NCBI GenBank assembly: GCA_028554795.2
Contig: CM068839.1
Coordinates: forward strand, 18,366,043-18,430,042
Reading direction: 5' to 3'
Length of the DNA: 64,000 nt
From: Sinohyriopsis cumingii
Lineage: Eukaryota > Mollusca > Bivalvia > Unionida > Unionidae
Numbering within the stretch: position 1 is the first letter of the stretch; the number at the start of each line of letters is the position of its first letter. Under the pieces are notes generated by a model. The model was not told the origin of the DNA. It made no database searches and worked only from the letters and a program-made list of their open reading frames with translations. Both the position numbers and the translations under genes were made by a program. Positions 44,046 to 60,843 of the stretch are shown here, one piece after another.

Positions 44046-44093
44046 GATTCGCTAGCGCTTGTGTGTAGTCAATCTATGCGACAGTGATTCAAC

Positions 44094-44644
44094 ATGACGG
44101 AAATTCAGAAAACGATCCATTGGGGTGCACCAGCAGGGGAGACCGCCCAAGGGAACCCGGACTTACTTTCAGAAGAGGTACATTGGGATTTTGTGGATTT
44201 TCTTACCTCGCAAGAATTTGTTCCGGAACCTTCGTCATTACCGCAAGTGGAGAATTTTAGACAGAGACAGAAAGAAGAATTGGAGAAATTTATGCAACGA
44301 CAAAAGGAAGCGGAACAAGCTTTTCTCCTACAGCAACAGCAACAGCAACAAGAAGAGGTAAAAAAAAACAACAGCAACAACAGCAAGAAGAAGTAGCAGC
44401 AAAGAAACAAGAGGGTGAAAATCAAACGGCTACGGTACTGTTGGACATTTTAGCGAACTTAAGAAGTCTGACACAAATGTATCAGACTTCTTTATCACGA
44501 CCGAAGAGAATACGACCTTCCCGAGCTAAACACGCCAACCCTGTGACTAAGCCTGTCGTACCACCCTTAGTGATTTCAACCCAATCATCAGAAGTAGGCC
44601 TTGGCCGTGGCAAAGGCTTAAGGCAGTTAAAGTTGATTGGTTAA
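44094..44644 (+). pseudogene. Accessory protein 1 of Polinton B (Q-rich coiled coil), frameshifted
   Basis: The first frame gives 100 residues: an N-terminal part with HWDFVDFLTSQEFVPEP, then a charged helix with two RQKE repeats and a glutamine run. The frame changes at the A-run at 44360-44368. A different frame then continues with glutamine/glutamate codons into MDILANLRSLTQMYQTSLSR and a basic proline-rich tail ending at 44644. I infer one gene of about 183 codons with a one-base slip at the homopolymer. It may be genuine decay, a sequencing error or programmed slippage. The organisation (helix, polyQ, conserved tail) resembles the accessory gene at 57652. Function unknown; intronless; followed 27 bp later by the stem-loop. 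Confidence 0.6.
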
Positions 44645-44671
44645 ACTCACTCCTACACCATAAAGAAAAAA

Positions 44672-44687
44672 GGCCCTTTTCAGGGCC
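44672..44687 (+). terminator. Histone-like 3' stem-loop after accessory gene 1
   Basis: GGCCCT-TTTC-AGGGCC: a 6-bp stem with a UUUC loop. AAAGAAAAAA lies before it and ACCCAC directly after, then CGAAAAGAAATAC about 12 bases later. Stem size, loop, A-rich 5' flank, ACCCA 3' flank and purine-rich downstream element all match metazoan replication-dependent histone mRNA 3' ends (SLBP site plus U7 element). Confidence 0.85.
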
Positions 44688-44935
44688 ACCCACATTTCTC
44701 GAAAAGAAATACAATTTCAATTTGCCAATAACTCAAAAAAAAAAACCCACCCATTTTACCCTTATAGTACGTGTCTGTGTATGAGTGCGTGAGTGTAGCT
44801 TCTTATTTTAAAATCAAAACTCAAAGACACTTACCTTATATCATTCATGTATTCTTTTATCCATTTTTTACAATCCAATTCACAATTCACCACAGAACAC
44901 TTTAAAAAGTTCGTACACTTCTTCTTTCTCATTAT

Positions 44936-45431
44936 TTAGTCTCTCTGTTTTTTGAAAATCTTCACCGTTTTTTCCTCATTTTCTTCCCTTCTTCTTTTCT
45001 TCTCCTGTTTCTTTGCCTCTTTTAAATAGAATTGTCTTCTTTCTTCCTCTTCTTCCTCTGAAGAATCCCTCTCTTCTTTCGAAGAATCCCTCTCTTCTTC
45101 CGAAGAATCCCTCTCTTCTTCTGAAGAATCCTTCTTTTCTTCTGACTCCTCTTGTTTCTTTTTTGGGCAATCTGGAGACCAATGTCCTTTTTCTTTACAA
45201 TAATAACAGGTATCTTGACTTTTGTCTTTTTTAGCCCCTGTTTTTTTTTTTTTTTTTTTGACGGTCTGGACACTCTGAAGACCAATGCCCTTTCTTCTGA
45301 CAGATATAGCAAGTATCCTGACTTTTATCTCGAAAGGAAGGAGAGTAGTCCGTAGGCTGGTTTGAAGAGAATTTTCTAATGACCCCTTGCAAAGCTCTGA
45401 CGAAACGTTCCATCTGGGTAGTCTCTTCCAT
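44936..45431 (-). pseudogene. CCHC zinc-knuckle protein of Polinton B, frameshifted
   Basis: Starts at ATG 45431 (MEETTQMERFVRALQGVIRK). The first knuckle is CYICQKKGHWSSECP. After a T-run of about 18 (45241-45258, A-run in the gene) the frame changes. The next frame gives the second knuckle CYYCKEKGHWSPDCP, then repeats of EERDSSEE, then a lysine/arginine-rich coiled coil ending at 44936. Two C-x2-C-x4-H-x4-C knuckles with basic and acidic tails resemble retroviral-type nucleocapsid or cellular RNA-binding proteins, suggesting nucleic-acid binding. About 165 codons. It is divergent from the polymerase gene with a TATATAAAAGG box about 55 bp upstream. Copies lie in both arms of A and in C. 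Confidence 0.75.
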
Positions 45432-45481
45432 CGTTGTGCTCGGTTTGAGAGTGAAATGAATAGTGAAAGGACAAGACACAC

Positions 45482-45565
45482 ACCCTTTTATATACGCTGG
45501 TTTGTCATGACTATAAATTAGTCTATGGTGTTTAAACTTGAGTCATTTGACGTTTTGCACTCAAG
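45482..45565. promoter_or_regulatory. Divergent promoter between zinc-knuckle and polymerase genes
   Basis: Minus-strand TATATAAAAGG at about 45484-45494 serves the zinc-knuckle gene (ATG 45431). Plus-strand TATAAAT at 45512-45518 serves the polymerase (ATG 45566). Both are about 54 bp from their ATG. The same arrangement is recognisable in both arms of A and, for the zinc-knuckle side, in C (TATATAAGG about 62572). Confidence 0.7.
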
Positions 45566-48500
45566 ATGAAACGATCCTATTCATTCGAGAAGAAAGAAGA
45601 AGAAGAAAGTAAGAGGCAGAAACGTGATCTATCGCCTCGTACCAGGGCTGAAATCTTGGCACAAATTCATGCCAGTGATTTTGAAGAGGACATGAGTGAA
45701 CCAGAATCCGAACCCTCTAAACCAAGTTCACCACCCTTAGTCAACCCTGAAAAGTACTATTCCATTCGAGAGACGGAAAAGCGCTCCTCTAGAAAATTTA
45801 GAACCACGGCTTACACCTACACGGTGAAGTTTAAAGATTTCAAGGCCGACGTACCCTTGGAGAAAGCAGAAGGGTTTATCACCGAGATGTGGGATTCTTT
45901 GCTCACCTCACTCAAGCGACAATGTCAACCCAAAGAAGACGATCGCTTGACACTATCCATAGATCACGACGGTTTGAAATCCCCTGTTTGGATCGAGTTT
46001 AGCAGACCCGCAGAACTAACCCCTTCCAAAGTCATGGACAAGATTCAACACGTACAACAATCTAATGACCAGTTTGACATCACCGATGGTAAAGCCACAC
46101 TGAAAATGGCTCACGTCTCTCTTCCTCAAGGGACAGGACGCAAAAAGATATTATTGGTGGACGACCTTCGCAACACCAAAACAAGTCTCGTCCGAATTAA
46201 CAACCCTCAAGACCAGATGTGCTTAGCCCGTGCCATCGTGGTGGGACGAACCTATGCCAACAAGAACGACACGGTAGAATGGAAAAGAACCTGGGAGAAC
46301 ATTCGAAAATCGAACCGAACCAAACAACGAAACGAAGCAGAACTCCTGTTGCAACAAGCTGGCCTGTCCAAAGACACACCCTGTGGCATTCCTGAGATGC
46401 AAAAATTGCAAGATGCCCTAGCTCCACGCTACACCTTGAAAGTGCACCCTCAAGAAATGCGCGGGTCTCTGTTGTTTCGAGGCCAAGACTTTAAGGACGG
46501 AAAATACATTCATGTTTATCATCACGATGACCATTTCGATACCATTACCAGTATCACCGGATTCCTGGGATACAGATATTACTGTGAGAAATGTGACTAT
46601 GGTTATAATAATCGAGAACAACACAAGCATTGTGGATGGAAATGCCCAGGATGTTTGGCCTCTCCACCCTGTCTGAGCGAAGAACCAGTGCCTTGTTCGA
46701 CTTGTCTGCGCACGTTTGTCAGCCCTACCTGATACCAACAACATTTGAAAACACAAGGTTCACAGAAGAAATGTGCTTGTCAACTCCTGAGATTGTGCCC
46801 TACGTGTAGACAAGGCATACGTACCAACAGTACCAAGGCACACGTATGTCGAGGAAAGAAAAAATGTCACATTTGTCACCACATCGTGGACTTGGAACAC
46901 GAATGCTACGTGCAAAAATACCAACCCCCACCAGAGAAAGAGGACGGTCACAAGAAGAAAGGCAATTTCATCTTTTTCGATTTCGAATGCATGCAAGAGA
47001 CCGGCATTCACATTCCTAATTTCTGCGTGGCTCATCGAGCGTGCGAGAAGTGCATTCAAGAACCTATCTTCAGTCATTGCCCTCACTGCAGCAAGATTCC
47101 TGGAGGGCGTGAAAAAATCTTTCGAGGACCGAACACGTTAGCCGATTTTGCCCAATGGGTCTTAGACCCCATCGACAAGACGTGGAGCCAAGAGGACATC
47201 GAACGTTACGGAGATTGTCATCGTCATGCCACAGTGATGGCTCACAATTTCTCCGGATACGATGGACAGTTTCTTCTCAGATACTATACGGAACAAGGCA
47301 CCGAGCGTCCTAAAGTGACTTTGAACGGAGCCAAAATCATTTTCATGCAAGTGGGACAAGTGCAGTTTAAAGATTCGATGAGTTACTTGGCCATGCCTTT
47401 GAGTCGAATGCCTAAAACGTTTGGAATGACAGAAATGGCTAAAGGGTACTTTCCTCACTTTTCCAATACGGAAGCCAATCAACATGCCGTTCTACCCCAT
47501 TTACCTGAGGCTCACTATTACGACCCCGACAACATGCGTACCGAACAACGAGAAGCTTTCTACGCTTGGTACCAAGCTCACGCCTCGGACCCTTTCGACT
47601 TTCAGGAAGAAATGCTAAAGTATTGTCGTTCCGACGTGGACATTTTACGGCGTTGCTGTGGAAAATTTCGAGAACTGTTCATGGAACACGGAGGGGTCGA
47701 TCCTTTGAAAGAAGCTTGCACCATTGCCAAAGCGTGTTCCTTAGTGTATCGACAACGATTCATGCCTGAAAACACCGTAGCTGTCATCAGTCCTCAAACG
47801 ACCCACTTTGTCAAACGTCAATACTCGGTCAAAGCCCTACGTTGGTTACATTACTTGTGCGACAAGGAAGACAAGTGGATTCAGCATGCCCGCAACGGAG
47901 GGGGCGAAAAGACCATCGGAACGTATTCGGTCGATGGCTGGGACTTAGAAAACCCCAAGATCGTGTACGAGTTTAACAGCTGCTTATTTCACGGATGTCC
48001 CGTCTGTTACCCTGACCGTAGCACTAAAAATCAGTTTTTACAACGAACCATGGAAGACTTGTACCAGGACACTTGTCAGCGGCGCCTAAAGTTAGAACAG
48101 CAAGGATACCAAGTGGTGGAAATGTGGGAACACGAGTACGATCACCGTATGAAAACCGATCCCGAGTTTAAACGCCTCGTGGAAAGTTACCAGTTCATGG
48201 ACCCGTTGAACCCGAGGGATAGTTTGTACGGAGGAAGGACCAATGCCACCTGTTTCCTGTACCAAGCCGACGAAGAGAAAGGAGAAGAAATCAAATACTT
48301 GGATGTGTGTTCGCTGTATCCCTACGTGTGCAAATATTGTCGCTTTCCTGTAGGGCACCCGCAATTGCTGACGGAACACATCGACCTGAAAAACATTCGA
48401 CAATACGAAGGCTTGATCAAGTGTAAAGTTTTGCCTCCCACGAACCTATACCATCCCGTCTTACCTCACCATTGTCAAGGCAAACTGATGTTTCCCTTGT

Positions 48501-49623
48501 GCCGTACTTGTGCCGAAACGTGCAACCAGGACCAACCTTGCCATCACAGCCAGGAAGAACGTGCCTTGACGGGAACCTGGGTCAGCGTGGAATTGTTCAA
48601 AGCTCTGGACATGGGATACTAACTGTTAGAAGTGTACGAAATTTGCCACTTTCCCAAGACACAACAGTACTTAGGGTGACCCTACTCAGAAAGGCATTTT
48701 CGCCGACTACGTGGATGCCTTTTTGAAACTGAAACAAGAAGCCAGCGGCTATCCTTCCTGGTGTCACACTCCCGAAGACCAAATACAATTCAAAGAGAAA
48801 TACTACGAACAAGAATGCATCTCTTTAGACCACATCGAAAAAAACGAAGGCAGGCGATCGTTTGCCAAAGTGATGTTAAATTGCTTGTGGGGTAAAATGG
48901 CACAACGACCGTGTTTACCCAAGACGGAATATTTGACAGAACCTTCCCGCTACTTCCAGATGATTCACGACAAAACCAAATACATGAAACACGTGGACGT
49001 CGTTCGAGAGGATTTGATCTTGGTCAATTACGAAGAAGATCTGGACTTTGTACAAGACGACCCTTTTGGAAATGTCATCATTGCGGCTTACGTGACAGCT
49101 CATGCTCGCTTAAAATTGTACGAAGCTTTAGAACTGTTAGGGGATCGCGTCCTGTACTTTGACACGGACAGTTGCATTTACATCCATCACCCGAGTCAAC
49201 AGCACCCTGACATCGAAGGAGACCGTTTAGGAGCCTGGACAGACGAGCATCCCGACGACAAGATTCTAAGTTTCGTCAGTGGCGGCCCCAAAAATTACGG
49301 CTACGAATACCGGGACAAACAAGGAGAAGTGCACACGACGTGCAAAGTGAAAGGACTGACTCTGAATCATCGTACCAGTCGAGTGGTCAACTTTGGGGTA
49401 TTGAAAGAAGCCTTGCAATCGGGATGGAAACTTTAAAGTGACCACCTATCAACCGAATAAGATTGTACGTTTACCCACTCACCACATCGTCAGTCGACCC
49501 TTGGAAAAAGTCTATCAAATTGTATACCAGAAGCGAGTGCGACTTCCCAATCACTTTACGTTGCCGTACGGTCACGTCGGTATTGGTCTGTATATAAAAA
49601 GGAACCCTAGGCAAGATCGATAG
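45566..49623 (+). pseudogene. Protein-primed family B DNA polymerase of Polinton B, disabled
   Basis: The replicative polymerase. The N-terminal 390 residues contain the Polinton-specific VSLPQG and KKILLVDDL segments and a cysteine/histidine cluster. Exonuclease motifs: FFDFEC (about 46973), HNFSGYDGQF (about 47243) and YCRSDVD (about 47621). Polymerase motif A DVCSLYP is at 48302, motif B KVMLNCLWG at about 48867 and motif C YFDTDS at about 49158. Damage: in-frame TGA at 46730-46732, TAA at 48620-48622, TGA near 48678, a frame change between 48678 and 48711, and another at about 49432 in a T-run. All motifs survive, so loss is recent. About 1,350 codons, usual for Polintons. Confidence 0.93.
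49591..49600 (+). promoter_or_regulatory. TATA box for the small gene at 49650
   Basis: TATATAAAAA, 59 bp before the ATG and inside the polymerase C-terminal coding end. Confidence 0.65.
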
Positions 49624-49649
49624 TTCATTGTTCATTGAAGTAACTTACC

Positions 49650-50040
49650 ATGTCGTTGACGAAGAAGAAACCAGATTGGTTAGGAGTCAAATGTTGGACA
49701 TCACCGAGACCAGGGTTTTGAGGCTTGGACACAAGAGGTGGCCCAGTATGCACGAGAGTTATTCAAGGAAAAAAGTTACTTTTCAACCCGTGTTAGTGAC
49801 GGTGCCAGAAGAACCCGTCACGCAGGACAGGACTGTCGTGGACAGGCCTGAAAGACCCTTTCGGGAGGACACTTGTGTGACCTTACCCCCCTACTATAGA
49901 ACTGGTTACAACTTTACCCAAAACATGTGGTTGTTGTACAGACACTTGTTTTTATTCCACGTTCATGGTTATCATGTGCCTTTTATTCTTGTACTTAAGC
50001 CTTTGGCTTTTATGTATTTTTGTCTTTCGTATTCATGTTT
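49650..50040 (+). pseudogene. Small unrecognised Polinton gene between polymerase and ATPase
   Basis: A good start context (ACCATGTCG) at 49650 begins MSLTKKKPDWLG. The frame stops after 23 codons at GGGTTTTGA. Coding-like sequence continues in the next frame (EAWTQEVAQYARELF) and, after the A-run near 49772, in a third (VTFQPVLVTVPEEPV ... YYRTGYNFTQNMWLLY), which ends hydrophobic. I infer one basic protein of about 130 codons broken by two homopolymer indels. It has its own TATA box and an AATAAA at 50054. Function unknown. Confidence 0.45.
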
Positions 50041-50053
50041 GAAAAAAACATTC

Positions 50054-50059
50054 AATAAA
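50054..50059 (+). terminator. AATAAA polyadenylation signal
   Basis: TTCAATAAACG, 16 bp before the next TATA box, closing the small gene and perhaps polymerase transcripts. It contrasts with the stem-loop ends of the accessory genes. Confidence 0.55.
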
Positions 50060-50074
50060 CGTGTTCTGAAAAAG

Positions 50075-50082
50075 TATATAAA
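50075..50082 (+). promoter_or_regulatory. TATA box of the packaging ATPase gene
   Basis: TATATAAA, 55 bp before the ATG at 50130. Confidence 0.65.
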
Positions 50083-50129
50083 CTCTTGTCTTGTTTGTTT
50101 TTCGTGTCACAAGTGACATTTCTCACACC

Positions 50130-50873
50130 ATGGCTACCTCTGCTGTCTCTGCTCCCTCTTCCTCTACTGTCAAAGTCATCGACGAACACTTAGATCGTGC
50201 CAGTTGGGAGGCTTTGTATCTTCGCCATCCCTTTAACATGCTCATTGCTGCACCTAGCGGTTCAGGCAAAACCGAATTCGTCAAACGTTTGATCGAACAT
50301 AAACATCATTTGATCGATCGGCCACCTCAACGGATCGTGTGGTGTTACAAAGAGTGGCAATCGGCGTACAACCTCTTGCGAGAAAGTCAAGGCGATTCCA
50401 TCGTGTTTGTGGAAGGCATTCCTAAAGAAGACGACGGCATCGTCTCTGACTCCCGTCAAACCCATTTGGTCATTTTCGACGACATGTTAGGAGAAGACGA
50501 TGAAGAAATTAAACTGTGGTTTACGCGCAAAGGGCATCACCGTAATGCCAGTGTCGTTTACATCACCCAAAATTTGTTTCAACAAAGTAAAGCCCATCGC
50601 ACCATCAGTCTCAATGCGCATTACGTGGTCTTATTTAAAAGCCCTCGAGATAAATCGCAAGTGCAAGTCTTAGCCAAACAGTTAGGAACGCCTTGGCTGA
50701 CTCAGGCGTACGACGATGCCACTCAAACGCCACACGCCTATTTACTCGTCGATTTGAAACCTACGACTCCCGAGAATTTGAGATTTCGTACCCACTTGTT
50801 TCACCACTGGTGCCAAGACGGAGGGCCTGTCCTGTACACGTCTCCGTCCTCGACTTCATTTCACTCCCCATAA
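50130..50873 (+). CDS. Genome-packaging ATPase (A32/FtsK-HerA type)
   Basis: 247 residues. Walker A APSGSGKT at residues 41-48, Walker B LVIFDDML at 113-120 with two acidic residues, and the downstream polar motif VVYITQNLF at 142-150 define the HerA/FtsK-like packaging ATPases of Polintons, virophages and large DNA viruses. It would pump the element's DNA into capsids. The ATG at 50130 is chosen because it follows CACACC and a TATA box at 55 bp. The frame is fully open and of normal length, making it one of the intact genes of B. No copy is seen in A or C. Confidence 0.94.
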   Translation: MATSAVSAPSSSTVKVIDEHLDRASWEALYLRHPFNMLIAAPSGSGKTEFVKRLIEHKHHLIDRPPQRIVWCYKEWQSAYNLLRESQGDSIVFVEGIPKEDDGIVSDSRQTHLVIFDDMLGEDDEEIKLWFTRKGHHRNASVVYITQNLFQQSKAHRTISLNAHYVVLFKSPRDKSQVQVLAKQLGTPWLTQAYDDATQTPHAYLLVDLKPTTPENLRFRTHLFHHWCQDGGPVLYTSPSSTSFHSP

Positions 50874-50880
50874 AAAAATC

Positions 50881-50887
50881 TATAAAA
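50881..50887 (+). promoter_or_regulatory. TATA box of the SPKK protein gene
   Basis: TATAAAA, 46 bp before ATG 50927 and just after the ATPase stop. Confidence 0.65.
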
Positions 50888-50926
50888 TACCTCAGACCCT
50901 TTTCGTCTGTCTCACACAGTGTGAAC

Positions 50927-51874
50927 ATGACGTCCCTTCAGTCGCATCTTCCCGTCAAATTGATTCGTGCCTTGTATGGCATTAGTCGAGAAAAAGATCC
51001 ACAAACACGAGCTCGTGTCTTAGAAGCTAGTCTCAAAGAAGTCTTACGATGGTTCACGCTGACGGCACGTCAATTACTCCAAGGAATCATTCAGATTCCT
51101 CATCAAACCAAACGCTTTTTTGATCGAAACAAAGTCGCTTTCGTCCAACTGGCCGATCCCCGCATCGACACTCAAACCAAAAAACAAATCATTTTGAAAC
51201 CTGGAGGGAGCGGTACTCTAGGAGGGGTCATCATTCGCTCACTCTTAAGATGGGATCCTAATGCCCCCAAAGTTATACCCAAGACAAAAGACCAACGAAG
51301 CCCCAAGAAGAAAAAGACCAGGTCCCCAAGGAGAACTTCTCCAGTGGCAGGACCCTCCTCTGACCAGACACCACCACCCCGGACAAAGAAAAGAAGCCCC
51401 CAGAAAAAGAAACAGAGAAAAAGTCCCCAGAAAAAGAAAAGTCCAAAGAAGAAAACTAGTCGCAAGAGAGGCACTTCGGCCAGGACGCAACCTTACACTC
51501 GCAAACCACGATCTGCCACGGCAGTGACTGCGTCTCCGGCATCCTCACGTTCATCCACTTCTCCGTTGATGACACCAGGAACTGAAGAGTACTTGGAGAC
51601 GTTGATCACACCAAGAACTTCTCCGTTAATGACCCCCAAAAGAACTTCCCCAGTGGCAGGACCTTCCAATTTAGTGGCAGTGGCTGCTGCTCACAATGTA
51701 CCTTCTCCCAAAATCAAAGTTCAAGAAAGATCGGGCATGTTACAAGGTTTACTGGATTTGTCCAAGCAAGAACTGGCTCGATTTAGTCCGTTACGTACCC
51801 CTGCACGACGTGTCATGCCTGTCCTCAAACTAATACGACGTCAAGACAATCAGTGGCGACACGTTCCAGTATAA
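50927..51874 (+). CDS. SPKK-rich basic virion-type protein
   Basis: 315 residues from the ATG at 50927. Residues 1-110 are helical and hydrophobic/basic (LIRALYGISREKDPQ, LRWFTLTARQLLQGI), ending in a KKQIILKPGGSGTLGG stretch. That segment resembles the basic-then-hydrophobic GG region of small Polinton/adenovirus-like core peptides. Residues 120-200 hold repeated SPKKK, SPRR and SPQKKK motifs. A Ser/Thr/Pro tail follows with duplicated TSPLMTP and RTSPVAGPS units. SPKK motifs bind the DNA minor groove in histone H1 and sperm proteins, so genome condensation in the capsid is a reasonable inference. Intact. The name and role are not established. Confidence 0.75.
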   Translation: MTSLQSHLPVKLIRALYGISREKDPQTRARVLEASLKEVLRWFTLTARQLLQGIIQIPHQTKRFFDRNKVAFVQLADPRIDTQTKKQIILKPGGSGTLGGVIIRSLLRWDPNAPKVIPKTKDQRSPKKKKTRSPRRTSPVAGPSSDQTPPPRTKKRSPQKKKQRKSPQKKKSPKKKTSRKRGTSARTQPYTRKPRSATAVTASPASSRSSTSPLMTPGTEEYLETLITPRTSPLMTPKRTSPVAGPSNLVAVAAAHNVPSPKIKVQERSGMLQGLLDLSKQELARFSPLRTPARRVMPVLKLIRRQDNQWRHVPV

Positions 51875-51878
51875 AAAA
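51870..51878 (+). promoter_or_regulatory. TATA box overlapping the SPKK gene stop
   Basis: TATAAAAAA overlaps the TAA at 51872-51874 and lies 63 bp before ATG 51933. Confidence 0.65.
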
Positions 51879-51932
51879 GGCATGTGACCAAGTCGGGTAT
51901 CAGTGTTTTTTGGTGCTCCTGAAGACTCAAAG

Positions 51933-52319
51933 ATGTCACCCTCCAGAAAACCCCAAGGAAAGAAAAGGAAAGGACTGCCACCACGTTTAGCCAAACATGG
52001 GGACATGTTATCTGTCCTGTCCAAAGCTTCTCCACCCCTACGAAAAAAACTCATTCAAACGGCCTCCAAAGAGGTCATCGATACCGTGTGCGAATGTTGT
52101 TTGAACGTTTTGAAAGGCACGATCCCTTTGTCCAAACACCAGAAACAATGCTTAGGCAAACATCGTCACGTTCTTCGCCAAATGGTTCGAAAGAAAATTC
52201 CCATTCGTCAAAAAAAGAAGATGTTAGTGCAACGTGGAGGTATTTTACCTCTCTTGTTAGGCCCCATACTGAAAGGAGTCTTGGGAACCATGTTGGGAGG
52301 ACTGGTGAGAGCAAGATAA
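51933..52319 (+). CDS. Small basic core-like protein with C-terminal hydrophobic GG segment
   Basis: 128 residues. The first half is basic, with CECCLNVLKGTIPLSKHQKQ. The end, KKKMLVQRGGILPLLLGPIL then KGVLGTMLGG, matches the adenovirus pX/mu-like peptide pattern found in many Polintons and adintoviruses: basic residues, RGG, then leucine-rich GP. Such peptides are maturation-cleaved core components that compact DNA or touch membranes. Intact. The ATG at 51933 follows the TATA at 63 bp; the next ORF begins 48 bp after its stop. Confidence 0.75.
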   Translation: MSPSRKPQGKKRKGLPPRLAKHGDMLSVLSKASPPLRKKLIQTASKEVIDTVCECCLNVLKGTIPLSKHQKQCLGKHRHVLRQMVRKKIPIRQKKKMLVQRGGILPLLLGPILKGVLGTMLGGLVRAR

Positions 52320-52367
52320 AAAGGCCTCGGAAGTTCCAAGATCTCAGAATCGACCCCTGACAACCCC

Positions 52368-53009: not shown

Positions 53010-53030
53010 CACACCAACCAACACAAAAAA

Positions 53031-54129
53031 ATGGAAAAAGTCTTAGCCAGCATTTACTACGATCCCTCCCATCCTGCAGGTTACGCAGGAGTTCAAAAAT
53101 TGTATTGTGCTGCCAAAACGCAACTGAAAAGTCTCCGTTTACCTCAAGTGCAACGATGGTTACAAGAACAAGCTACCTACACTTTACACAAACCCATTCG
53201 ACGCAAGTTTGCCAGAAGTCGCACCCGAGTGGAAGGCATCGATCATCAATGGCAAGCCGATTTAGCCGATGTCTCTCATTTCGCCAGCTACAATCGTGGC
53301 TACAAATATTTGTTTTGTGTCATCGACGTCTTTTCCAAATTTGCTTGGGTCGTACCCTTGACTTCCAAATCGAGCAGCGAGTTAGTGCGAGCCCTGCAAC
53401 GGGTGTTGAAACAAAGCGGTCGTCACCCTCTTCGATGGCAAACGGACAAAGGTACCGAATTTCTGAACCAAGCTTTCCAAAAAGAATTAAAGAAACGTGA
53501 CATTCATTTTTTTACCACCGAGAATCCCGAAACCAAAGCCAGCATCGTGGAACGTTTTCAACGCACTTTGAAAGAACGCATGTGGAAATATTTTACGCAT
53601 CACCACACTCTGAAGTACATTGACATCTTACCGCACCTGGTGCAAGCGTACAACCAATCTTACCATCGAAGCATCGGACGTGCCCCGCAAGACGTGACTC
53701 CCGACAACGAAGTGCTGCTGTTTGAGCGTCTGTTTGGTACGTCCCCGACGAGGGCTGTCCCCAAGAAAAGTGGAGAGTTGGCCGTAGGAGATTGGGCAAA
53801 ACCAAACGCACTTTTGACAAAGGTTACTTACCTAACTGGACGACCGAACTGTTTCGCGTCACTGGACGAGTGGATGGCCGTCATCCTGCCGTCTATAAAT
53901 TGGAAGACATGAACGGAGAAGTGCTCAAAGGAACGTTTTATTTGCACGAGTTACAACGTGTCACCAAAAAGAAGACGACGTGTACGACATCGAAAGCATT
54001 CTCGAACGCAGAACCCGTAAAGTGGGCAAACGACGTGTCAAAGAAGTCAAAGTACGTTGGAAAGGATATCCGCCCAGTTTTGATTCTTGGATCGACGCTT
54101 CGCAAGTCATCGACTATAAAAAGAAGTGA
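53031..54129 (+). pseudogene. Retroviral-type integrase (rve) with C-terminal chromodomain, frameshifted
   Basis: Integrates the element and makes 6-bp duplications. The catalytic core shows D77 (WQADLADV), D139 (WQTDKGTEF) and E174 (ASIVERFQ), the DD~35E triad. An N-terminal helical zinc-binding-like part precedes it. Frame 1 is open to 53912, but coding similarity leaves it near 53795 (GDW then KTKRTFDKGYLPNW in the next frame). A second shift at the A-run near 53968 precedes the chromodomain (VRWKGYPPSFDSWIDAS), ending at 54127-54129. The chromodomain may direct insertion to marked chromatin. The core is intact but the full protein cannot be read in one frame. Confidence 0.92.
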
Positions 54130-54134
54130 CCATC

Positions 54135-54548
54135 ATGCCTTTTCACACAGACGCAGCTACGTCGACCACTCCTCCTTCACCCAGTTCTTCTGTGCAAGAT
54201 TTACTAAAACAACCCTTGTGGGTGTGGTGTGGAGAACGTGTGCCTAAAACGCAAATCGTCTTTTTCTGCCAAATTTTCGTGGTGTATTGTGTCATCGGGG
54301 CAGCCATTGCCAATTTGAGTTTGCAACAAGGAGACAAACAATTGTGGACCATTTTATTGAGCAGTTGCATCGGTTACCTGCTTCCTAATCCCTCCCTGAA
54401 ATTCACCTCGAACGGGAACCACGAGAACCTTGTGTCCAGTGCCAGTGCCAGTCACCACTCCAACCACAACCAGAACCCCATTTTGGGCGGAGACACGCCT
54501 CTGACGTCCACTAACCCCTCGGACAGCCACAGAACTCTGGAATTATGA
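54135..54548 (+). CDS. Two-TM Polinton membrane protein
   Basis: 137 residues from ATG 54135. Two hydrophobic segments, QIVFFCQIFVVYCVIGAAIA and WTILLSSCIGYLLPNP, are separated by a short polar loop (NLSLQQGDKQ). The C-terminal tail is Ser/Asn/His-rich. The IVFFCQ...LSSCIGYLLP.PSLK pattern is a conserved small membrane protein of animal Polintons located between integrase and penton; its role is unknown (membrane targeting or egress is possible). It overlaps the penton ATG by four bases (ATGA), suggesting coupled translation or a shared transcript. Intact; the A copy lost its start codon. Confidence 0.82.
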   Translation: MPFHTDAATSTTPPSPSSSVQDLLKQPLWVWCGERVPKTQIVFFCQIFVVYCVIGAAIANLSLQQGDKQLWTILLSSCIGYLLPNPSLKFTSNGNHENLVSSASASHHSNHNQNPILGGDTPLTSTNPSDSHRTLEL

Positions 54549-55468
54549 GTCACCAAAACCAATTTTACTTAACCTTACCCAGTGACAGTTCCATGGAGGT
54601 GTTTCCCAAGAACACGTTGTGCTGTTACACGGCCAAATTACCTCAAGCCATCCCCTTAGATCACGAAGCCCATTGGGAAGTGGCTTTAGTAGAAATGATT
54701 CACCCGACCCAAGTCCTCAATGTCCTTCCCAATCAAAATTTTTTTGATGTGGAAGTTCATGACGAACAATTGCAACAGTGGATGGATAGCAATGTCAAAT
54801 ATGACAAGAAAACCCGTACACAAAAGTACACCACCTATCACTTGTTCATTTCCCCAGGCTATTATTTTAGTGGTCAACATTTGGTCAGCAACATAGCCTC
54901 CAGGTTTAATGCCGTGTTTCTGAAAGCTTTGGAGCATGTTAACAAAAGTGTCACCATGGAGTACCACAAAACAGCTCGTCGCTTCTTGATGAAATTTGAA
55001 CGGAGTAAAATCCTGTCCATTTTATTTTGTCCTGAATTGTATGACATGTTGGGCGGAGACATGAACCTGAGAATGAGCATGATGAAGAAAAGCGAATTAC
55101 CCATCGTTTACGACAACGAGTCTTTTAGCAAGTTATTTGGTGCCCCGGTAGAACTGAACCAAGGACTGAATTTGATGTTTGTGTACTCCGATGTGGTGGA
55201 GTATAACGTGGTGGGACACACCTCCGTACCGTTACTGCGTGTCATTCCTTTCAAAGTGGATTCTGCCACGAACACTGACGAGGAAGGTGGAAACACTTAC
55301 CACGTCCACCGCGAATTTGTACATCCTCACTATTTGCCTGTCAGTAAGTCGTATTTGGACACGGTCAACATTACTATAAAAGGAGATTTGGGACAAAATA
55401 TTCCATTCACCAAACGAAAAGTCACGGTGAAACTCCATTTTCGAAAACGGTTTTCTCACGATTCGTAA
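54545..55468 (+). CDS. Penton-like minor capsid protein (B)
   Basis: 307 residues. The N-terminus FYLTLPSDSSMEVFP and WEVALVEMIHPTQ, and the C-terminal LNQGLNLMFVYSDVVEYN and FVHPHYLPVSKSYLDTV, mark the Polinton minor capsid (penton) protein, predicted as a single jelly roll at the icosahedral vertices. It is fully open and the same length as the A copy. The region 70-200 differs strongly from A while the ends are nearly identical. It starts inside the previous gene's stop (ATGA). Confidence 0.9.
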   Translation: MSHQNQFYLTLPSDSSMEVFPKNTLCCYTAKLPQAIPLDHEAHWEVALVEMIHPTQVLNVLPNQNFFDVEVHDEQLQQWMDSNVKYDKKTRTQKYTTYHLFISPGYYFSGQHLVSNIASRFNAVFLKALEHVNKSVTMEYHKTARRFLMKFERSKILSILFCPELYDMLGGDMNLRMSMMKKSELPIVYDNESFSKLFGAPVELNQGLNLMFVYSDVVEYNVVGHTSVPLLRVIPFKVDSATNTDEEGGNTYHVHREFVHPHYLPVSKSYLDTVNITIKGDLGQNIPFTKRKVTVKLHFRKRFSHDS

Positions 55469-55471
55469 GTC

Positions 55472-55888
55472 ATGTATCCAGTGTACCGAGGGGTTGCTCG
55501 ACAGCGAGGACACGGTTTAGGAGATATGTTAAAATCGGCCTTTCGTTCGGTGGCCCCGGTGTTGAAACCGATGGTGACACGCGGATTGCACGCCTTGAAA
55601 GATGCGGCACTGACGCAAGGCAAAGAATTTCTCCAAAATGTCATCATCGACAAACAAAACCCTAAAGAAGCCTTCATGAGGGCAGGCAAAAATGTCTTGC
55701 TGCAAACGGGCAAAGACATTTTGGGTCACCGAGAAACACCTATAAATGCCCTGCACGCTACCGAGTCAGGCATTCAGCAAAGACAAGGCAGAAAGAGACG
55801 ACGAAGAAAACACCCTTTCACCAGACTTCAAGCTAGAAAGGCCAAGAAAAGAAGAACCGTTCGAGACCTAGACGTTTTCGATTATTGA
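55472..55888 (+). CDS. pVI-like small virion protein
   Basis: 138 residues, starting three bases after the penton stop. The N-terminus MYPVYRGVARQRGHGLGDML, then LKSAFRSVAPVLKP and GLHALKDAALTQGKEFLQNV, forms an amphipathic helix. The C-terminus is strongly basic (QGRKRRRRKHP, RKAKKRRTVRDL) and ends in an acidic DLDVFDY. A Gly-rich start, amphipathic helix and basic nuclear-localisation-like tail resemble adenovirus pVI/pX-type proteins reported for Polintons. A membrane-lytic or DNA-associated virion role is inferred from that resemblance. Intact in B, deleted in A. Confidence 0.75.
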   Translation: MYPVYRGVARQRGHGLGDMLKSAFRSVAPVLKPMVTRGLHALKDAALTQGKEFLQNVIIDKQNPKEAFMRAGKNVLLQTGKDILGHRETPINALHATESGIQQRQGRKRRRRKHPFTRLQARKAKKRRTVRDLDVFDY

Positions 55889-55904
55889 GAAAAGAGACAA
55901 AAAA

Positions 55905-57218
55905 ATGATGCACCGAGAATCTTGCGCTTGTTCCAAGACGGAACTGGATCTGTTTGCCATGCCCCCCACGATGATGACGATGCAAGAATCCCAGTGGGTG
56001 GAATTTCACCCCGTCTCCTCACTGACCGATTCCGCTCCCATCGAGTTTGAAATCAAAGGACAGCCCGAAGATTACATCGATCTGAATAGCAGTTACTTGT
56101 ACCCGAAAGTCAAAATTCTAGATAAGACTGGAGGTGCTATAGACGATGAAGCAGTAGCTCCCGTCAACAATTTCATGCATTCCTTGTTCAGTGGAGTGGA
56201 CTTGTACTTGAATAACAAACTGGTCAGTAGCAGCATGGATACTTACCCTTATCGTGCCTACCTGGAAAATCTCTTGACGTACGGAATAGATGCCAAGAAC
56301 ACTCATCTCAATGCCTGTGTGGTATGGGAAACTGACGAACCTACCAAGTTTGAAATATTGGAAACTGATGAAAAGAAAGACAACAATGATGGATTTCTAG
56401 AACGAAGAAAGAGAATCACGGGAGCCGACACAAGTTTAGAACTGATGGATCGTTTGCATTTGGACATGTGGTTGCAAGAAAATTATTTGCTGAACGGGGT
56501 GGATGTCCGCCTGAGACTGAATCGTAGCAGTGCCGCTTTCCATTTGATGGCTGATAGTGACAGTTACAAAACCAAAATCCTAGAAGCCAGACTCTACGTA
56601 CGCCGTGTGGAAGTGTTACCTAAAGTGGGAAACGACATCAGTCAGACGTTGAGCAGAACGACTGCCAAGTATCCCATACGACGCGTGGAAGTGAAAACCT
56701 TCACCATTCCCAAGGGACAGCGATCCATGATCGAAGATCATCTATTCCAAGGACAGTTACCCAAACGTTTGATCGTTGGTATCGTCGAGAATACAGCCTT
56801 CAACGGAGCTGTCGAAAAAAATCCTTTCTACTTTCAACACTTTGGCGTGTCCAAAATCGAAGTCAGTCGCGATGGCAAGACCTTGTGTACCCGACCTTTC
56901 GAACCTGACTTTACCAAGAAGAATTACTTGAGATCGTACTTGTCCCTGTACGAAGCCACAGGACAGTTAGGAACCAATACCAGTCACGGTATTACGTACG
57001 AGGATTATGCAGGAGGCTACGCTTTGTAGGCTTTCGATTTCACTCCAGACCAAGGCAGCGACGAGGGACATTTCCACCCTATAAAATCTGGCCAGATTCG
57101 TGTGGAAATTCAGTTTAAAGACCGAGACCCTGATGAAACGGTGAACGTCATCCTGTATGCAGAATTCGATAATGCCATAGAAATCAACAGTTTGAGAGAA
57201 GTCATCCTAGATTACTAG
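55905..57218 (+). pseudogene. Major capsid protein (double jelly-roll type), one in-frame TAG
   Basis: The capsid protein often annotated as F54H12.2-like. Its early region has LDLFAMPPT, QWVEFHPVSSLTDSAPIEFE and EDYIDLNSSYLYPKV, and the middle has FMHSLFSGVDLYLNNKLV. It forms the double-jelly-roll hexon-like shell in Polintons. 374 codons are open to a TAG at 57027-57029. The same frame then continues 62 codons (AFDFTPDQGSDEGHF ... HPIKSGQIRVEIQF) to a TAG at 57216-57218. The A copy carries the same tail, so the full length was about 437 residues. The stop removes part of the second jelly roll, so the product is probably non-functional unless read through. Confidence 0.93.
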
Positions 57219-57223
57219 AAACC

Positions 57224-57322
57224 ATGGAAGACTGTTATCCCTCTTTACCTAGTGGAGAAACTTTTAGTGTTGGATTATTGTTAAAAAAAATGTTAGAGTT
57301 GTTGTTGTTTAGTGTTAAGTGA
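57224..57322 (+). pseudogene. Remnant of the CYGC gene (first codons) in B
   Basis: MEDCYPSLPS matches the start of the A gene at 10700. It then runs straight into the AT-rich 3' region that follows the protease in A. The rest of the CYGC gene and the whole protease are therefore deleted here. Confidence 0.6.
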
Positions 57323-57445
57323 TTTTTGAATAAAAAATGTTGTGTTTTGAAAAAATTGTTTGATGTTATATTGTTGGATTATTGTTAAAAATGTTAGAGT
57401 TGTTGTTTAGTGTTAAGTGATTTTTAAATAAAAAATGTTGTGTTT
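57275..57445 (+). terminator. Duplicated AT-rich 3' region with two AATAAA signals
   Basis: Two copies of a segment containing TTAGTGTTAAGTGATTTTT then AATAAAAAATGTTGTGTTTT (AATAAA about 57330 and 57427). A has one copy after its protease. Confidence 0.65.
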
Positions 57446-57559
57446 TGAAAAAAATGCCTTTGTCTTTTGTTTAGCTATAAGAATGTTGGATTGATGCTCT
57501 TTCATTTCTTACTATCCCTCTCATGACACTCACTAAACGTTGCGACTCAAAAACCGTGT

Positions 57560-57590
57560 GGGGGATGTTTTCCTTCACGTCCGCGCTTTG
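57560..57590 (+). promoter_or_regulatory. Accessory-gene upstream block 1 (B)
   Basis: GGGGATGTTTTCC then TTCACGTCCGCGCTTTGAC, 60-90 bp before ATG 57652. Confidence 0.7.
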
Positions 57591-57651
57591 ACTTTAAGAA
57601 CCGGGTTGTTTCCAGTCTAACCATCCATTGTCGACTCATCCTCCTACGAAG

Positions 57652-58011
57652 ATGTGCTCCAAACTAGCTAAGCTCAACGAAGCCTACGTGAATTTGCATA
57701 GGGTCAGACACAGTCTGATACCGAAGCCAGAAGAAATAGAGAATGTGAGAATGTTAAAAATTACTGAAGACCTGATAGAAGAGCTCTTCAGAGAAGAAAT
57801 GAACAGGGAAAAAGAAGAATGGACAGAGAAGTAAAGACTTCAGAGACAGCAGCAACAGCAGCAACAACGACAACAGCAGCAGCAACCTGAAGCTGACAGA
57901 GGCTTTGTCGATTGTCGTATCGACACCAAAGAGTTCTTCTTCTCTTTTCGAAAAAGCAGACCTATCGCCAGAAAGTCTATCCTCAGAGGACATCGCATTC
58001 TTAGAAACTAA
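57652..58011 (+). pseudogene. Accessory protein 2 of Polinton B (Q-rich coiled coil), one TAA
   Basis: From ATG 57652 it reads CSKLAKLNEAYVNLHRVR, a leucine/acidic helix and REKEEW, then TAA at 57832-57834, where the A homologue has a tyrosine codon. The same frame stays open through a glutamine run and RGFVDCRIDTKEFFFSF to a TAA at 58009-58011, for 120 codons in all. A single substitution thus truncates an otherwise conserved gene. Compared with A (8861-9280), the N-terminus and the DTKEFFFSF motif are best conserved. Function unknown. It has the upstream block and a 3' stem-loop. Confidence 0.68.
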
Positions 58012-58039
58012 AAAAGAATGCCATAGCAAACAAAAAAAC

Positions 58040-58055
58040 AGCCCTTTTCAGGGCT
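58040..58055 (+). terminator. Histone-like 3' stem-loop after accessory gene 2
   Basis: AGCCCT-TTTC-AGGGCT with ACAAAAAAAC before it, ACCCA directly after (58056-58060), and GAAAAGAAATAAC about 13 bases later. The outermost pair is A-T instead of G-C, a compensated change that keeps the stem. Confidence 0.85.
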
Positions 58056-58060
58056 ACCCA

Positions 58061-58424
58061 ATACTCTAGAAAAGAAATAACAATCCATTTGCCAATGTGT
58101 GTAGGTAGAGTAGTGTGAAAATAAACACTAACTCTTTTTTAAAAAATGTGAGGGTATGTGTTTGTGTGTTTGTGTTTGTATGTGGTTAAGTAAGTTGGTA
58201 TGGATAGTAGATTAAAATGATGTCTTTTTTTTTGGTGTTTGAGGTGTAAATTTGGGGTTAGATTGGATTGCTTTGCGTATGTGGATAGTCTATGGAAGTG
58301 ATTTATAAAAAATTTTAAAATAGTGATGGGTAGCATAAAAAAGTGAGTGAGTGTTTCTTTTAGGTCAGCGCGTTGTTGTTTTTTTTTTGGTTATGATCTA
58401 GGTAAGATCAATTTTATGTTTTTA
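58061..58424. other. GT/AT-rich spacer between accessory genes
   Basis: No gene. It contains TGTGTTTGTGTTTGTATG-type simple sequence and GATCTAGGTAAGATCAATTT, a block repeated before 60020. Confidence 0.45.
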
Positions 58425-58464
58425 GGGGGATGTTTTCCATCACGTCCGCGCTTTCACTATAAAT
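58425..58464 (+). promoter_or_regulatory. Accessory-gene upstream block 2 with TATA (B)
   Basis: GGGGGATGTTTTCC then ATCACGTCCGCGCTTTCAC and TATAAAT at 58458-58464. The TATA is 57 bp before ATG 58515. Confidence 0.72.
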
Positions 58465-58514
58465 TGAAACTCGCTGGGCAGTCTAGCTACCCTTGTTGAT
58501 TGATCAACACAAGA

Positions 58515-58823
58515 ATGAATAGCAGAATAAGCAAACTTCTTGAACTCCAGATACATCTGGAATATGTCAGGCGCCTGTTAAATGAACTGGCCGCGGAGGC
58601 TATAGTAGAAGAGGAAAGAATGAAGAACGAAGAGGAGGAGAGAAGACAGAGGGAAGAGGAGGAAAAGAAACTAGAAGAGAGGATGTCGTACAATATTCCC
58701 GAGACAGAGGATTGGGGTGTTGAAGCGAATCATCCTCCCTCTGCGCTCCCCAGAAGAAAGGTGAAAGGAGACTGGGGAAGAAGATGCGTGTGTGGCGCCA
58801 GGCCAGGAAGGTGCAACCATTAG
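58515..58823 (+). CDS. Accessory protein 3 of Polinton B (acidic coiled coil)
   Basis: 102 residues. Residues 1-30 are a leucine-rich helix (ISKLLELQIHLEYVRRLLNE). Residues 31-60 are a Glu/Arg-rich coiled coil. A tail has WGVEANHPPSALPRRK and a cysteine-containing RRCVCGARPGRC end. Single intact frame with upstream block, TATA and 3' stem-loop. No homologue with known function was recognised. The helical start resembles the other accessory proteins in composition, so they may be a diverged family. Confidence 0.62.
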   Translation: MNSRISKLLELQIHLEYVRRLLNELAAEAIVEEERMKNEEEERRQREEEEKKLEERMSYNIPETEDWGVEANHPPSALPRRKVKGDWGRRCVCGARPGRCNH

Positions 58824-58852
58824 ATAGGTGCATCTGGAGTTCAAAAAAAAAC

Positions 58853-58868
58853 AGCCCTTTTAAGGGCT
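58853..58868 (+). terminator. Histone-like 3' stem-loop after accessory gene 3
   Basis: AGCCCT-TTTA-AGGGCT, ten A bases just before (58843-58851, with C), ACCCA directly after (58869-58873), then GAAAAGAAATAAC. Loop UUUA is also within the range accepted by metazoan SLBP. Confidence 0.82.
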
Positions 58869-58907
58869 ACCCAATACTCTAGAAAAGAAATAACTATCGA
58901 TTTGCCA

Positions 58908-58914
<7 letters not shown>

Positions 58915-58941
<27 letters not shown>

Positions 58942-59880
58942 GTAGAGTAGTGTGATTATAAACACTAACTCTTTTTTCATAGTGCGAGGGTATGTGTTTG
59001 TGTGTTTGTGTTTGTAACTGCTCACGTAAGTTTGTGTGAATGGTAGATTATGGGTTTCTTTATTGTTTCTTAGCGTATGTGAAGAGTATAGTTTGGGTTT
59101 TGTAAGCGCTCACGTACGATTGTGTGGATAGTAGATTATGGATTTTGTTTATTGTTTTTTAGCGTATGTGGAGAGTATAGTTTGGGTTTTGTAAGCGTTC
59201 ACGTACGATTGTGTGGATAGTAGATTATGGATTTTGTTTATTGTTTCTTAGCGTATGTGGAGAGTATAGTTTGGATTTTGTAAGCGCTCACGTACGATTG
59301 TGTGGATAGTAGATTATGGATTTTGTTTATTGTTTCTTAGCGTATGTGAAGAGTATAGTTTGGGTTTGTAAGCGCTCACATACGATTGTGTGGATAGTAG
59401 ATTATGGATTTTGTTTATTGTTTCTTAGCGTATGTGGAGAGTATAGTTTGGGTTTTGTAAGCGCTCACGTACGATTGTGTGGATAGTAGATTATGGATTT
59501 TGTTTATTGTTTCTTAGCGTATGTGGAGAGTATAGTTTGGGTTTGTAAGCGCTCACGTACGATTGTGTGGATAGTAGATTATGGATTTTGTTTATTGTTT
59601 CTTAGCGTATGTGGAGAGTATAGTTTGGGTTTTGTAAGCGCTCACGTACGATTGTGTGGATAGTAGATTATGGATTTTGTTTATTGTTTCTTAGCGTATG
59701 TGGAGAGTATAGTTTGGGTTTTGTAAGCGCTCACGCACGATTGTGTGGATAGTGGATTATGGATTTTGTTTATTGTTTCTTAGCGTATGTGGAGAGTATA
59801 GTTTGGGTTTTGTAAGCGCTCACGTACGATTGTGTGGATAGTAGGTTATGGATTTTGTTTTAATGATTTGCGTGTGTAAA
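58915..59880 (+). repeat. GT run and 89-bp tandem array, about 9.5 units
   Basis: (GT)n at 58911-58938. From about 59015 the unit contains GCGCTCACGTACGATTGTGT, GGATAGTAGATTATGGATTT, TGTTTATTGTTTCTTAGCGT and ATGTGGAGAGTATAGTTTGG. Starts at 59106, 59195 and 59284 give an 89-bp period. The CGTACG/GTGTGGATAGTA core is shared with the arms of A. Confidence 0.93.
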
Positions 59881-59950
59881 TAGTAGATTTGGGGTTTGTT
59901 TATTGTTGCTTCACTTATGTGGATAGTATATTATATGAAATGAGAAAAGT

Positions 59951-59980
59951 AGGGATGTTTTCTTTCACGTCTGCACGATG
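59951..59980 (+). promoter_or_regulatory. Degenerate upstream block (B)
   Basis: AGGGATGTTTTCTTTCACGT then CTGCACGATG, 70 bp before the intact copy at 60020; probably a duplicated promoter. Confidence 0.55.
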
Positions 59981-60019
59981 TTAGGTCATGATCTAGGTAA
60001 TATCAATTTTATGTTTTAA

Positions 60020-60059
60020 GGGGGATGTTTTCCATCACGTCCGCGCTTTCACTATAAGA
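60020..60059 (+). promoter_or_regulatory. Accessory-gene upstream block 3 with TATA-like box (B)
   Basis: GGGGGATGTTTTCC then ATCACGTCCGCGCTTTCAC and TATAAGA at 60053-60059. The box is 46 bp before ATG 60099. Confidence 0.72.
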
Positions 60060-60098
60060 ACCCACAGTATTCGTCGTTCAAACCATTCTACAAAGAAG

Positions 60099-60458
60099 AT
60101 GGCTTCGAACCAAATTGACAAGATGCAAACACTGCAAGACGTTTTAGACAATTTAGGAATGATGGAGCAGATGTTAATAAGACTCGTTGAAGACCACTAT
60201 TCCTATAGTCCCCATCGTGTAAAGATGGAAATTAATAACTTGAGAAAGGTAAAGGACAAGATAAGTGGTGTCATGAAAGAGATAAAGGAGGAGAAGGAGG
60301 ATGAAGAGGAAAGGATAAGGATGAGAGCATGGAATGAAAAAATTGAAAAAGAAGAAGAAAATGAAAAGAGGAAGAAAGAAGAGGAGGAAGAGAAGAAGAA
60401 AGAAGAGGAGGAGAAAAAAAGAAAGAAAAGAAGAGAAAGAGTGTTGGAGATAAAATAA
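60099..60458 (+). CDS. Accessory protein 4 of Polinton B (coiled coil)
   Basis: 119 residues. Residues 1-60 are mixed helix (MQTLQDVLDNLGMMEQMLIR, then SYSPHRVKMEINNLRK). Residues 65-119 are an uninterrupted Glu/Lys/Arg coiled coil ending in a basic KKRKKRRERVLEIK. A single intact frame, intronless, with upstream block, TATA-like box and a stem-loop 55 bp after the stop. Function not recognised. Shared design with accessory proteins 1-3 suggests a related set. Confidence 0.65.
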   Translation: MASNQIDKMQTLQDVLDNLGMMEQMLIRLVEDHYSYSPHRVKMEINNLRKVKDKISGVMKEIKEEKEDEEERIRMRAWNEKIEKEEENEKRKKEEEEEKKKEEEEKKRKKRRERVLEIK

Positions 60459-60505
60459 GAAGTTGGTGGAGAAAAAGAAGAAATTAGAAGCAGAAGAAGA
60501 AGAAA

Positions 60506-60843
60506 ACCCAAAGGCCCTTTTCAGGGCCAGCCATATTTCTCGAAAAGAGATAGCCTTTCCATTGCCTACCCTTTTTTAAATTTAAATTTAAATTTAAATT
60601 TAAAAAAACTTTTTTAAAAAAAATCCCATATTCAATTCCCCTTGTCCCTAGACAAACCCAAACTCTATTCCCATGTTCAATTCCCCTTGTCCCTAGACAA
60701 GCCCAAACTCTATGTTAAATTCCCATTGTCCCTAGAGTGACCCACGATTTTTCTCCATGTTAAATTTCCATTGTCCCTAGAGTGGCCCAGGGGTGTTTTT
60801 AATGCTAAGTCCCATTGTCCCTAGGGTGGCCCCATTTACTACT
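60506..60843 (-). repeat. Right terminal inverted repeat of Polinton B
   Basis: Counterpart of 43330-43624. It includes the stem-loop of the last accessory gene, the AT palindrome (about 60577-60606) and subterminal CCCTTGTCCCTAGACAA units. Confidence 0.92.
60513..60528 (+). terminator. Histone-like 3' stem-loop after accessory gene 4
   Basis: GGCCCT-TTTC-AGGGCC. The 5' flank ends CCCAAA, giving the classical CCAAAGG start. The 3' flank is AGCCA (one change from ACCCA) and CGAAAAGAGATAG follows 10 bases later. Confidence 0.83.

Follow-up and report, generated by a model that had tools for sequence, protein, structure and literature searches.

Does a virus-like transposon express its own genes with the regulatory signals of its host's histone genes? 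The question is raised by a 64,000-nucleotide stretch of the genome of Sinohyriopsis cumingii (hereafter the window; assembly GCA_028554795.2, contig CM068839.1, positions 18,366,043 to 18,430,042 of the forward strand), which contains a Polinton element with five small genes at its ends, namely two divergent ones on the left (43874 on the minus strand and 44094 on the plus strand) and three genes on the right (57652, 58515 and 60099). Each is followed by a stem-loop and flanks of the kind seen at the 3' ends of replication-dependent histone genes, an arrangement usually taken as private to those genes. From comparison with the host's own histone genes we propose that the small end genes of the Polinton are very probably expressed as histone-type genes, through stem-loop binding protein (SLBP) and the U7 small nuclear ribonucleoprotein (snRNP).

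All five stem-loops (Table 1) are matched by RF00032, the Rfam model of the histone 3' stem-loop; three exceed its gathering score of 34, while the 58853 and 58040 sites fall below it with E values of about 2e-5. A sequence-only reading of this DNA had described four of the sites and likened them to metazoan histone 3' ends. All four are present as described, the covariance model and the similar flanks of the host's histone genes support the likeness, and a fifth site, on the minus strand behind the 77-residue frame of gene 43874, had been missed. The distance from gene to stem, put at about 30-60 bp in that reading, is 24-54 nucleotides when taken from the stop of the nearest-ending frame (27, 28, 29, 54 and 24 nucleotides for the five sites in the order of Table 1), and frame and stem-loop lie in the same sense in 5/5 cases. 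At every small gene the module runs, in sense, from an A-rich stretch through the stem-loop, ACCCA (or AGCCA) and a spacer to GAAAAGA(A/G)AT, which begins 13 nucleotides past the stem; mutual alignment of the window's three kinds of module is confined to about -13 to +58 relative to the stem. Chance hairpins were considered as a source of the stem-loops and are ruled out: the pattern RGCCCTTTTMAGGGCY has five matches in the window and none in 100 dinucleotide-preserving shuffles. The compensated G-C to A-T switch within the stem that had been noted earlier is real, and since the 58040 and 58853 sites that share this change (G-C to A-U in the message) both lie in a duplicated stretch, it is probably a single event. 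Downstream of the stem on the same strand, as far as the next core frame or the element end, four of the five genes have neither AATAAA nor ATTAAA.

The histone genes of the host lie in tandem units of about 8.3 kb, one of which (L042) was read; among the matches listed (the best 150 of 238 candidates scored) there are 104 full-length H3 copies at 100% identity. Within this unit H3, H4, H2B, H2A and H1 end in GGCCCTTTT(T/C/A)AGGGCC (GGTCCTTTTCAGGACC in H1), GAAAAG(A/G) follows 13-14 nucleotides after the stem in all five, and the stop codon precedes the stem by 28 (H3), 27 (H4) and 34 (H2B) nucleotides. The 3' flanks are gtctaGAAAAGAgc for H3, aactaGAAAAGAta for H4, ctctaGAAAAGAtg for H2B, tcccGAAAAGGaa for H2A and cctaGAAAAGAtt for H1, to be compared with ttctcGAAAAGAaa, ctctaGAAAAGAaa and ttctcGAAAAGAga in the Polinton. 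R1, a covariance model for which the five Polinton sites were the only input, was run on 14 loci and finds the host genes with 54.4 (H2B), 51.4 (H2A), 50.0 (H3), 38.1 (H4), 34.5 (H1) and 38.1 bits (a second H2B). Because a Polinton-only model recovers the host's histone 3' ends, the Polinton modules match the signal in the form used by this host. The comparison with host flanks had been suggested together with the original four sites, and its outcome agrees with the suggestion for the five genes of the main unit, which carry the same kind of flank; only a separate H2B array differs. That array (L058; contig C1, 5070000-5079900) is tandem with a period of 1851 bp and has the same stem. As the downstream element is shared with the host's histone genes, the GAAAAGA element is predicted to pair with host U7 RNA. 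Elsewhere in the genome, 17 of 20 loci examined (L043-L056 and L059-L061), spread over many chromosomes, hold copies of the 5' portion of the host H3 gene; many comprise the 5' untranslated stretch ttgagaagtaaagtc and roughly the first 30 H3 codons (protein 84-100% identical), usually followed by a stop codon. It seems that the H3 5' end was taken up by a second repeat family.

The likeness extends to the promoters of the three right-end genes. Local alignment of the 300 nucleotides upstream of Polinton genes with those of host histone genes gave scores against H2B of 48 for 58515, 48 for 60099 (both identical at 24/24 bases: GATGTTTTCCATCACGTCCGCGCT), 43 for 57652 (23/24) and 41 for the orthologue of 57652 in a second Polinton-type element of the window (element 2). 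In the same order, the scores were 48, 48, 42 and 36 against H1, and 37, 37, 42 and 40 against the second H2B. Across 300 control comparisons with the upstream sequence shuffled in two-base blocks the maximum was 29, and 12 of the 14 frames of the core region (53909 and 54135 left out) reached at most 28 against any histone gene; the 24-base H2B element is absent before all 12 of these core genes. The 57652-type orthologue of element 2 thus also carries the H2B/H1-type promoter element, and another gene of that element, 15790, has a maximum score of 23. Inspection by eye revealed no E2F sites in the promoters. The divergent promoter between 43874 and 44094 differs from the right-end promoters, having a CRE-like TGACGTCA before 44094 and a pair of TATA boxes.

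The stem-loop is abundant and its surroundings are conserved. The sequence GGCCCTTTTCAGGGCC occurs at 34,230 exact places (16,943 + 17,287) in the 2.9 Gb genome, host histone genes included, and the reversed-pattern control at none; with three such stem-loop sites per element, this count suggests a number of elements of the order of ten thousand. Twenty left ends were sampled as pairs of exact stem-loops among the first 100 listed places of this sequence, all on contig C1, and since they were chosen for two exact stem-loops only their other features are informative. Both left genes are matched by tblastn in 20/20 of them, and an exact GAAAAG occupies +14 to +19 in 20/20 sites of the 44094 type and 18/20 of the 43874 type, with nine distinct 40-mers in each. 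Among the 171 pairs formed by 19 of these ends (L067, which starts at residue 7, being left out), 105 pairs of the 43874 type are more than 0.3 apart at fourfold sites of the 77-residue gene (mean 0.42); in these GAAAAG differs by 0.04 and the surrounding bases by 0.10-0.18. The 77-residue gene itself has a median ratio of non-synonymous to synonymous change (dN/dS) of 0.11 at a median dS of 0.74 (161 of 190 pairs, those with dS 0.1-1.5; 61 codons in the window and the same 19 left ends). For 57652 and its element-2 orthologue dN/dS is 0.18 at a dS of 0.81 over the first 60 codons, and for the 44094 type the medians are 0.40 and 0.145, a low dS (113 pairs, without L079).

Nine sites in other copies that were not picked by an exact stem were found with R1 (the exact-match place L011 is excluded). 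Of these 8/9 keep 6/6 pairs, one of them by way of G-U, while L059 has A.C at the base of the stem; since the stem contributes to the R1 score, decayed sites may have escaped it. In the right end L082, stem, ACCCA and GAAAAGAAAT are intact behind a 58515-type protein that shares 51% identity with that of the window. When 26 distinct rows are aligned, histone rows included, 99.4% of cells are paired and two-sided pair changes occupy seven cells, a number reached by 0/500 shuffles; given that the rows share ancestry and that an exact stem was the criterion for many of them, these counts offer support, not proof. Two relatives of the 77-residue protein, P0123 and P0124, are 78-79% identical to it. 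P0123 ends at the shared C-terminus, and P0124, from a 523-bp ENA contig, runs on with KPFSGPLTLLEN. As a weak line, this extension may be the type of peptide that read-through of a stem-loop module would give (RPFSGPAIFLEKR in the window); judged by codons, the first stem pair of P0124 is probably mismatched and its downstream element is different.

The observed likeness to the host's own signals, together with the position, orientation and conservation of the modules, leads us, in the light of established histone biology, to infer that SLBP and U7 are used, that the messages lack poly(A) and are timed to S phase, and that capture ran from host to element, as follows. Host SLBP would bind the Polinton stem-loop and the U7 snRNP would pair with the GAAAAGA element starting 13 nucleotides past the stem; the pre-mRNA would be cut after ACCCA, giving messages without poly(A) that would be stable and translated mainly in S phase. 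Since the three right-end genes carry the H2B/H1 promoter element, the S-phase transcription factors of host H2B and H1 probably activate them too; the left divergent pair would use its TATA boxes and CRE-like site in place of such an element. No histone-type module was found after the core replication genes of the Polinton, and for this reason the element seems to run two expression programmes. The module probably originated in a host histone gene, most like H2B. The simplest account is that an ancestral Polinton captured the regulatory parts of a histone gene, which then spread to several accessory genes and were kept up by selection.

Several observations weigh against this proposal. The left pair has no histone-like promoter (maximum score 19), and an AATAAA 65 nucleotides past the 58040 stem could be a poly(A) site. 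The ATG frame of the 44094 gene stops at 44396 and another frame ends at 44644; as no single frame runs from 44094 to the stem, the gene is broken or frameshifted in this copy. The 57652 gene likewise has an in-frame stop here, and the orthologous frame of element 2 (9280-8861, minus strand) is open. The module behind that orthologue has lost its 5' stem arm, so that when this decayed site is added to the nine R1-found ones 8/10 keep all pairs, and no stem-loop was found after the element-2 gene 15790, which has a TATA box. In L082 the 60099-type stem lacks the downstream element. The number of pairs with two-sided changes is 2, a value reached by 41/500 shuffles. On the host side, the flank of the separate H2B array, tctgtAAAAGAat, has tctgtAAAAGA downstream and no GAAAAG. 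A search for host U7 gave seven pattern matches against three in the control, none convincing, and no match to RF00066, a result that is uninformative since the controls also gave none.

Part of this evidence would suit an inert relic, in which an ancestor captured histone flanks that now do nothing and persist through the youth of the copies and conversion between terminal repeats. Many copies are indeed near-identical; in the sampled left ends the mean pairwise identity is 0.87-0.89 over the 70 nucleotides upstream, nearly as high as the 0.90-0.92 of the 40 nucleotides past the stem (0.70-0.84 beyond), which is not decisive. Two of the five sites, 43616 (of the 43874 type) and 60513, lie inside the terminal repeats and could be kept alike by conversion, and two of the five genes here have no frame that runs unbroken to the stem. 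Conservation speaks the other way: in the 105 diverged pairs GAAAAG differs far less than the fourfold sites, and the L082 module is intact behind a protein of only 51% identity. A relic also sits poorly with module kinds that align only around the stem and with a match to the host that covers the downstream element and its spacing besides the stem. We regard a relic as quite improbable. A purely structural role of the hairpin DNA in replication or integration, with no more than a resemblance to histone 3' ends, is disfavoured to the point of being barely credible: two of the five copies lie in terminal repeats, as it would have them, yet all five stand in sense directly after a frame, and the cleavage flank and downstream element that follow them are of the host histone type.

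A closer competitor to histone-type expression accepts SLBP/U7 processing and drops the S-phase timing, so that the module would serve as a compact 3' end and terminator for outward-directed genes, backed up by polyadenylation in resting cells. The 43874 and 60099 genes do face outward, each with its stem-loop at the inner edge of a terminal repeat, and both the AATAAA after the 58040 stem and the left pair's want of a histone-type promoter element fit this idea. A terminator would have no need of the histone promoter element carried by three genes, however, and three of the five sites are found outside the terminal repeats; we consider this alternative unlikely. Histone-type expression remains our preferred reading, and we lean, with some reserve, towards its fullest form: that a virus-like element took over the whole histone expression programme, S-phase promoter and SLBP/U7 3' end together, for non-histone accessory genes, and multiplied until its stem-loops far outnumbered the histone genes of its host (34,230 exact places against at least 104 full-length H3 copies, with five histone genes in the unit read). 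Such a takeover would be a type of hijack new for a mobile element or DNA virus.

The element that carries these genes is a Polinton, as the sequence-only reading had it: type B DNA polymerase (PolB), A32-type ATPase, retroviral-type (rve) integrase, AG-ended inverted repeats and the GGTATC duplication are all present. AG-ended terminal inverted repeats with a 6-bp target duplication are a hallmark of Polinton/Maverick elements; here the repeats are identical at 293/295 aligned bases with two gaps, and the element measures about 17.5 kb. The integrase has 2346 relatives, the top two of which carry a chromodomain. The remaining core frames gave no Pfam match over a cut-off, those of major and minor capsid proteins and protease included. 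Two AATAAA motifs after the last core frame (55905-57029) are possible ordinary polyadenylation signals. The five small frames scanned (the second pieces 44261-44644 and 57835-58011 lying outside the scan) match no Pfam histone family; their only matches, among them one of the K/E-rich 60099 frame to TAF4, fall short of the cut-off. An AlphaFold model of the 77-residue protein had a mean pLDDT of 46.9 and was not used further.

Table 1. Features of the Polinton, its small end genes and their signals (window coordinates).
Feature	Position	Strand	Details
Polinton element	43330..60843	+	flanked by 6-bp target duplication GGTATC (43324-43329, 60844-60849); both ends begin AGTAGTAAATGGGGCC
77-residue basic protein frame (gene 43874)	43641..43874	-	open; isoelectric point 11.5; start codon preceded at 52 nt by TATAAA; 24 nt from stop to stem
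Q-rich small gene (44094)	44094..44644	+	TGACGTCA and TATATA upstream; 27 nt from 44644 to stem
Small charged-protein gene (57652)	57652..58011	+	one in-frame stop at 57832-57834
102-residue charged protein frame (58515)	58515..58823	+	
119-residue K/E-rich protein frame (60099)	60099..60458	+	
Stem-loop GGCCCT/TTTC/AGGGCC, ACCCA, GAAAAGAAAT	44672..44710	+	RF00032 44667-44711, 41.2 bits
Stem-loop AGCCCT/TTTC/AGGGCT, ACCCA, GAAAAGAAAT	58040..58078	+	RF00032 58035-58080, 31.0 bits
Stem-loop AGCCCT/TTTA/AGGGCT, ACCCA, GAAAAGAAAT	58853..58891	+	RF00032 58848-58893, 31.1 bits
Stem-loop GGCCCT/TTTC/AGGGCC, AGCCA, GAAAAGAGAT	60513..60551	+	inner edge of right terminal repeat; RF00032 60508-60553, 35.6 bits
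Stem-loop GGCCCT/TTTC/AGGGCC	43601..43616	-	left terminal repeat; RF00032 43576-43621, 35.6 bits
Promoter element shared with host H2B promoter (23/24), like that of H1	57564..57587	+	
Promoter element, 24/24 with host H2B promoter	58429..58452	+	then TATAAA
Promoter element, 24/24 with host H2B promoter	60024..60047	+	then TATAAG
Stretch like host H4 promoter (TTTCTTTTAGGTCAGCGCG)	58354..58381	+	upstream of 58515; score 39, control maximum 29
Type B DNA polymerase (core gene)	46991..48622	+	PF03175, E 3.6e-32; no stem-loop
A32-type packaging ATPase (core gene)	50130..50873	+	PF04665, E 1.1e-6, 28.8 bits (cut-off 22.8); no stem-loop
Retroviral-type (rve) integrase (core gene)	53031..53912	+	PF00665, E 1.2e-14; no stem-loop
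AATAAA	57329..57334, again at 57427	+	after last core frame
Decayed module after element-2 orthologue of 57652	8841..8910	-	5' stem arm lost; 3' arm and GAAAAGAAAT kept

The Polinton sits inside a diverged, inverted copy of a related element, whose parts flank it at 42960-43329 and 60873-62752 with 76-84% identity. Between the 58515 and 60099 genes (58970-59900) lie about ten copies of an 88-89-bp tandem repeat, and related repeats occur in element 2. The latter occupies 3685-19073 of the window, with a GTTATT duplication and long inverted end regions; blastn found no matches in it to the PolB, ATPase or integrase stretches.

As a sign of viral spread beyond this host, RGCYCTTTTMAGRGCYACCMA was sought in IMG/VR and rejected: its single match lies inside a frame of a phage-like contig and has no RF00032 match. 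No relatives of the PolB or the integrase were confirmed in IMG/VR. The literature searched, with most subscription journals outside its scope, held no account of histone-type 3' ends in Polintons, a limited negative. What the locus offers is a virus-like transposon that, in one large genome, bears the histone 3' end at tens of thousands of exact places behind unrelated genes (the genes being checked in 20 left ends), accompanied on some of them by a histone promoter element. If our reading is right, the timing of accessory genes to cell division in such elements would have an explanation, and the Polinton genes would form a natural set of non-histone SLBP/U7 substrates. The same reading predicts poly(A)-minus Polinton messages, which standard poly(A) RNA-seq would miss. 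If expressed, the stem-loops would be competitors for SLBP and U7, and the activity of the element would be tied to host replication.

Among known systems, adintoviruses are animal viruses with PolB and integrase, and some adomaviruses encode a histone-like protein, Histoid (PMC11071296). That text has 0 occurrences of 'stem-loop' and of 'polyadenylation', and the likeness it describes for Histoid is one of protein to histone, whereas that of the Polinton lies in promoter and 3' end signals. In its PolB, rve integrase, A32-type ATPase, AG inverted repeats, 6-bp duplication and length the element resembles Polinton/Maverick elements; it departs from those described in its histone-type 3' ends and promoter elements. 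With metazoan replication-dependent histone genes its small genes share the 6-bp stem, the 4-base loop, the ACCCA-like cleavage flank and GAAAAG 13-14 nucleotides past the stem, as well as short frames whose stops lie 24-54 nucleotides before the stem and, in three genes, the host H2B/H1 promoter element. Unlike histone genes, they are located in a transposon, two of them have no histone-like promoter, and the frames scanned belong to no Pfam histone family.

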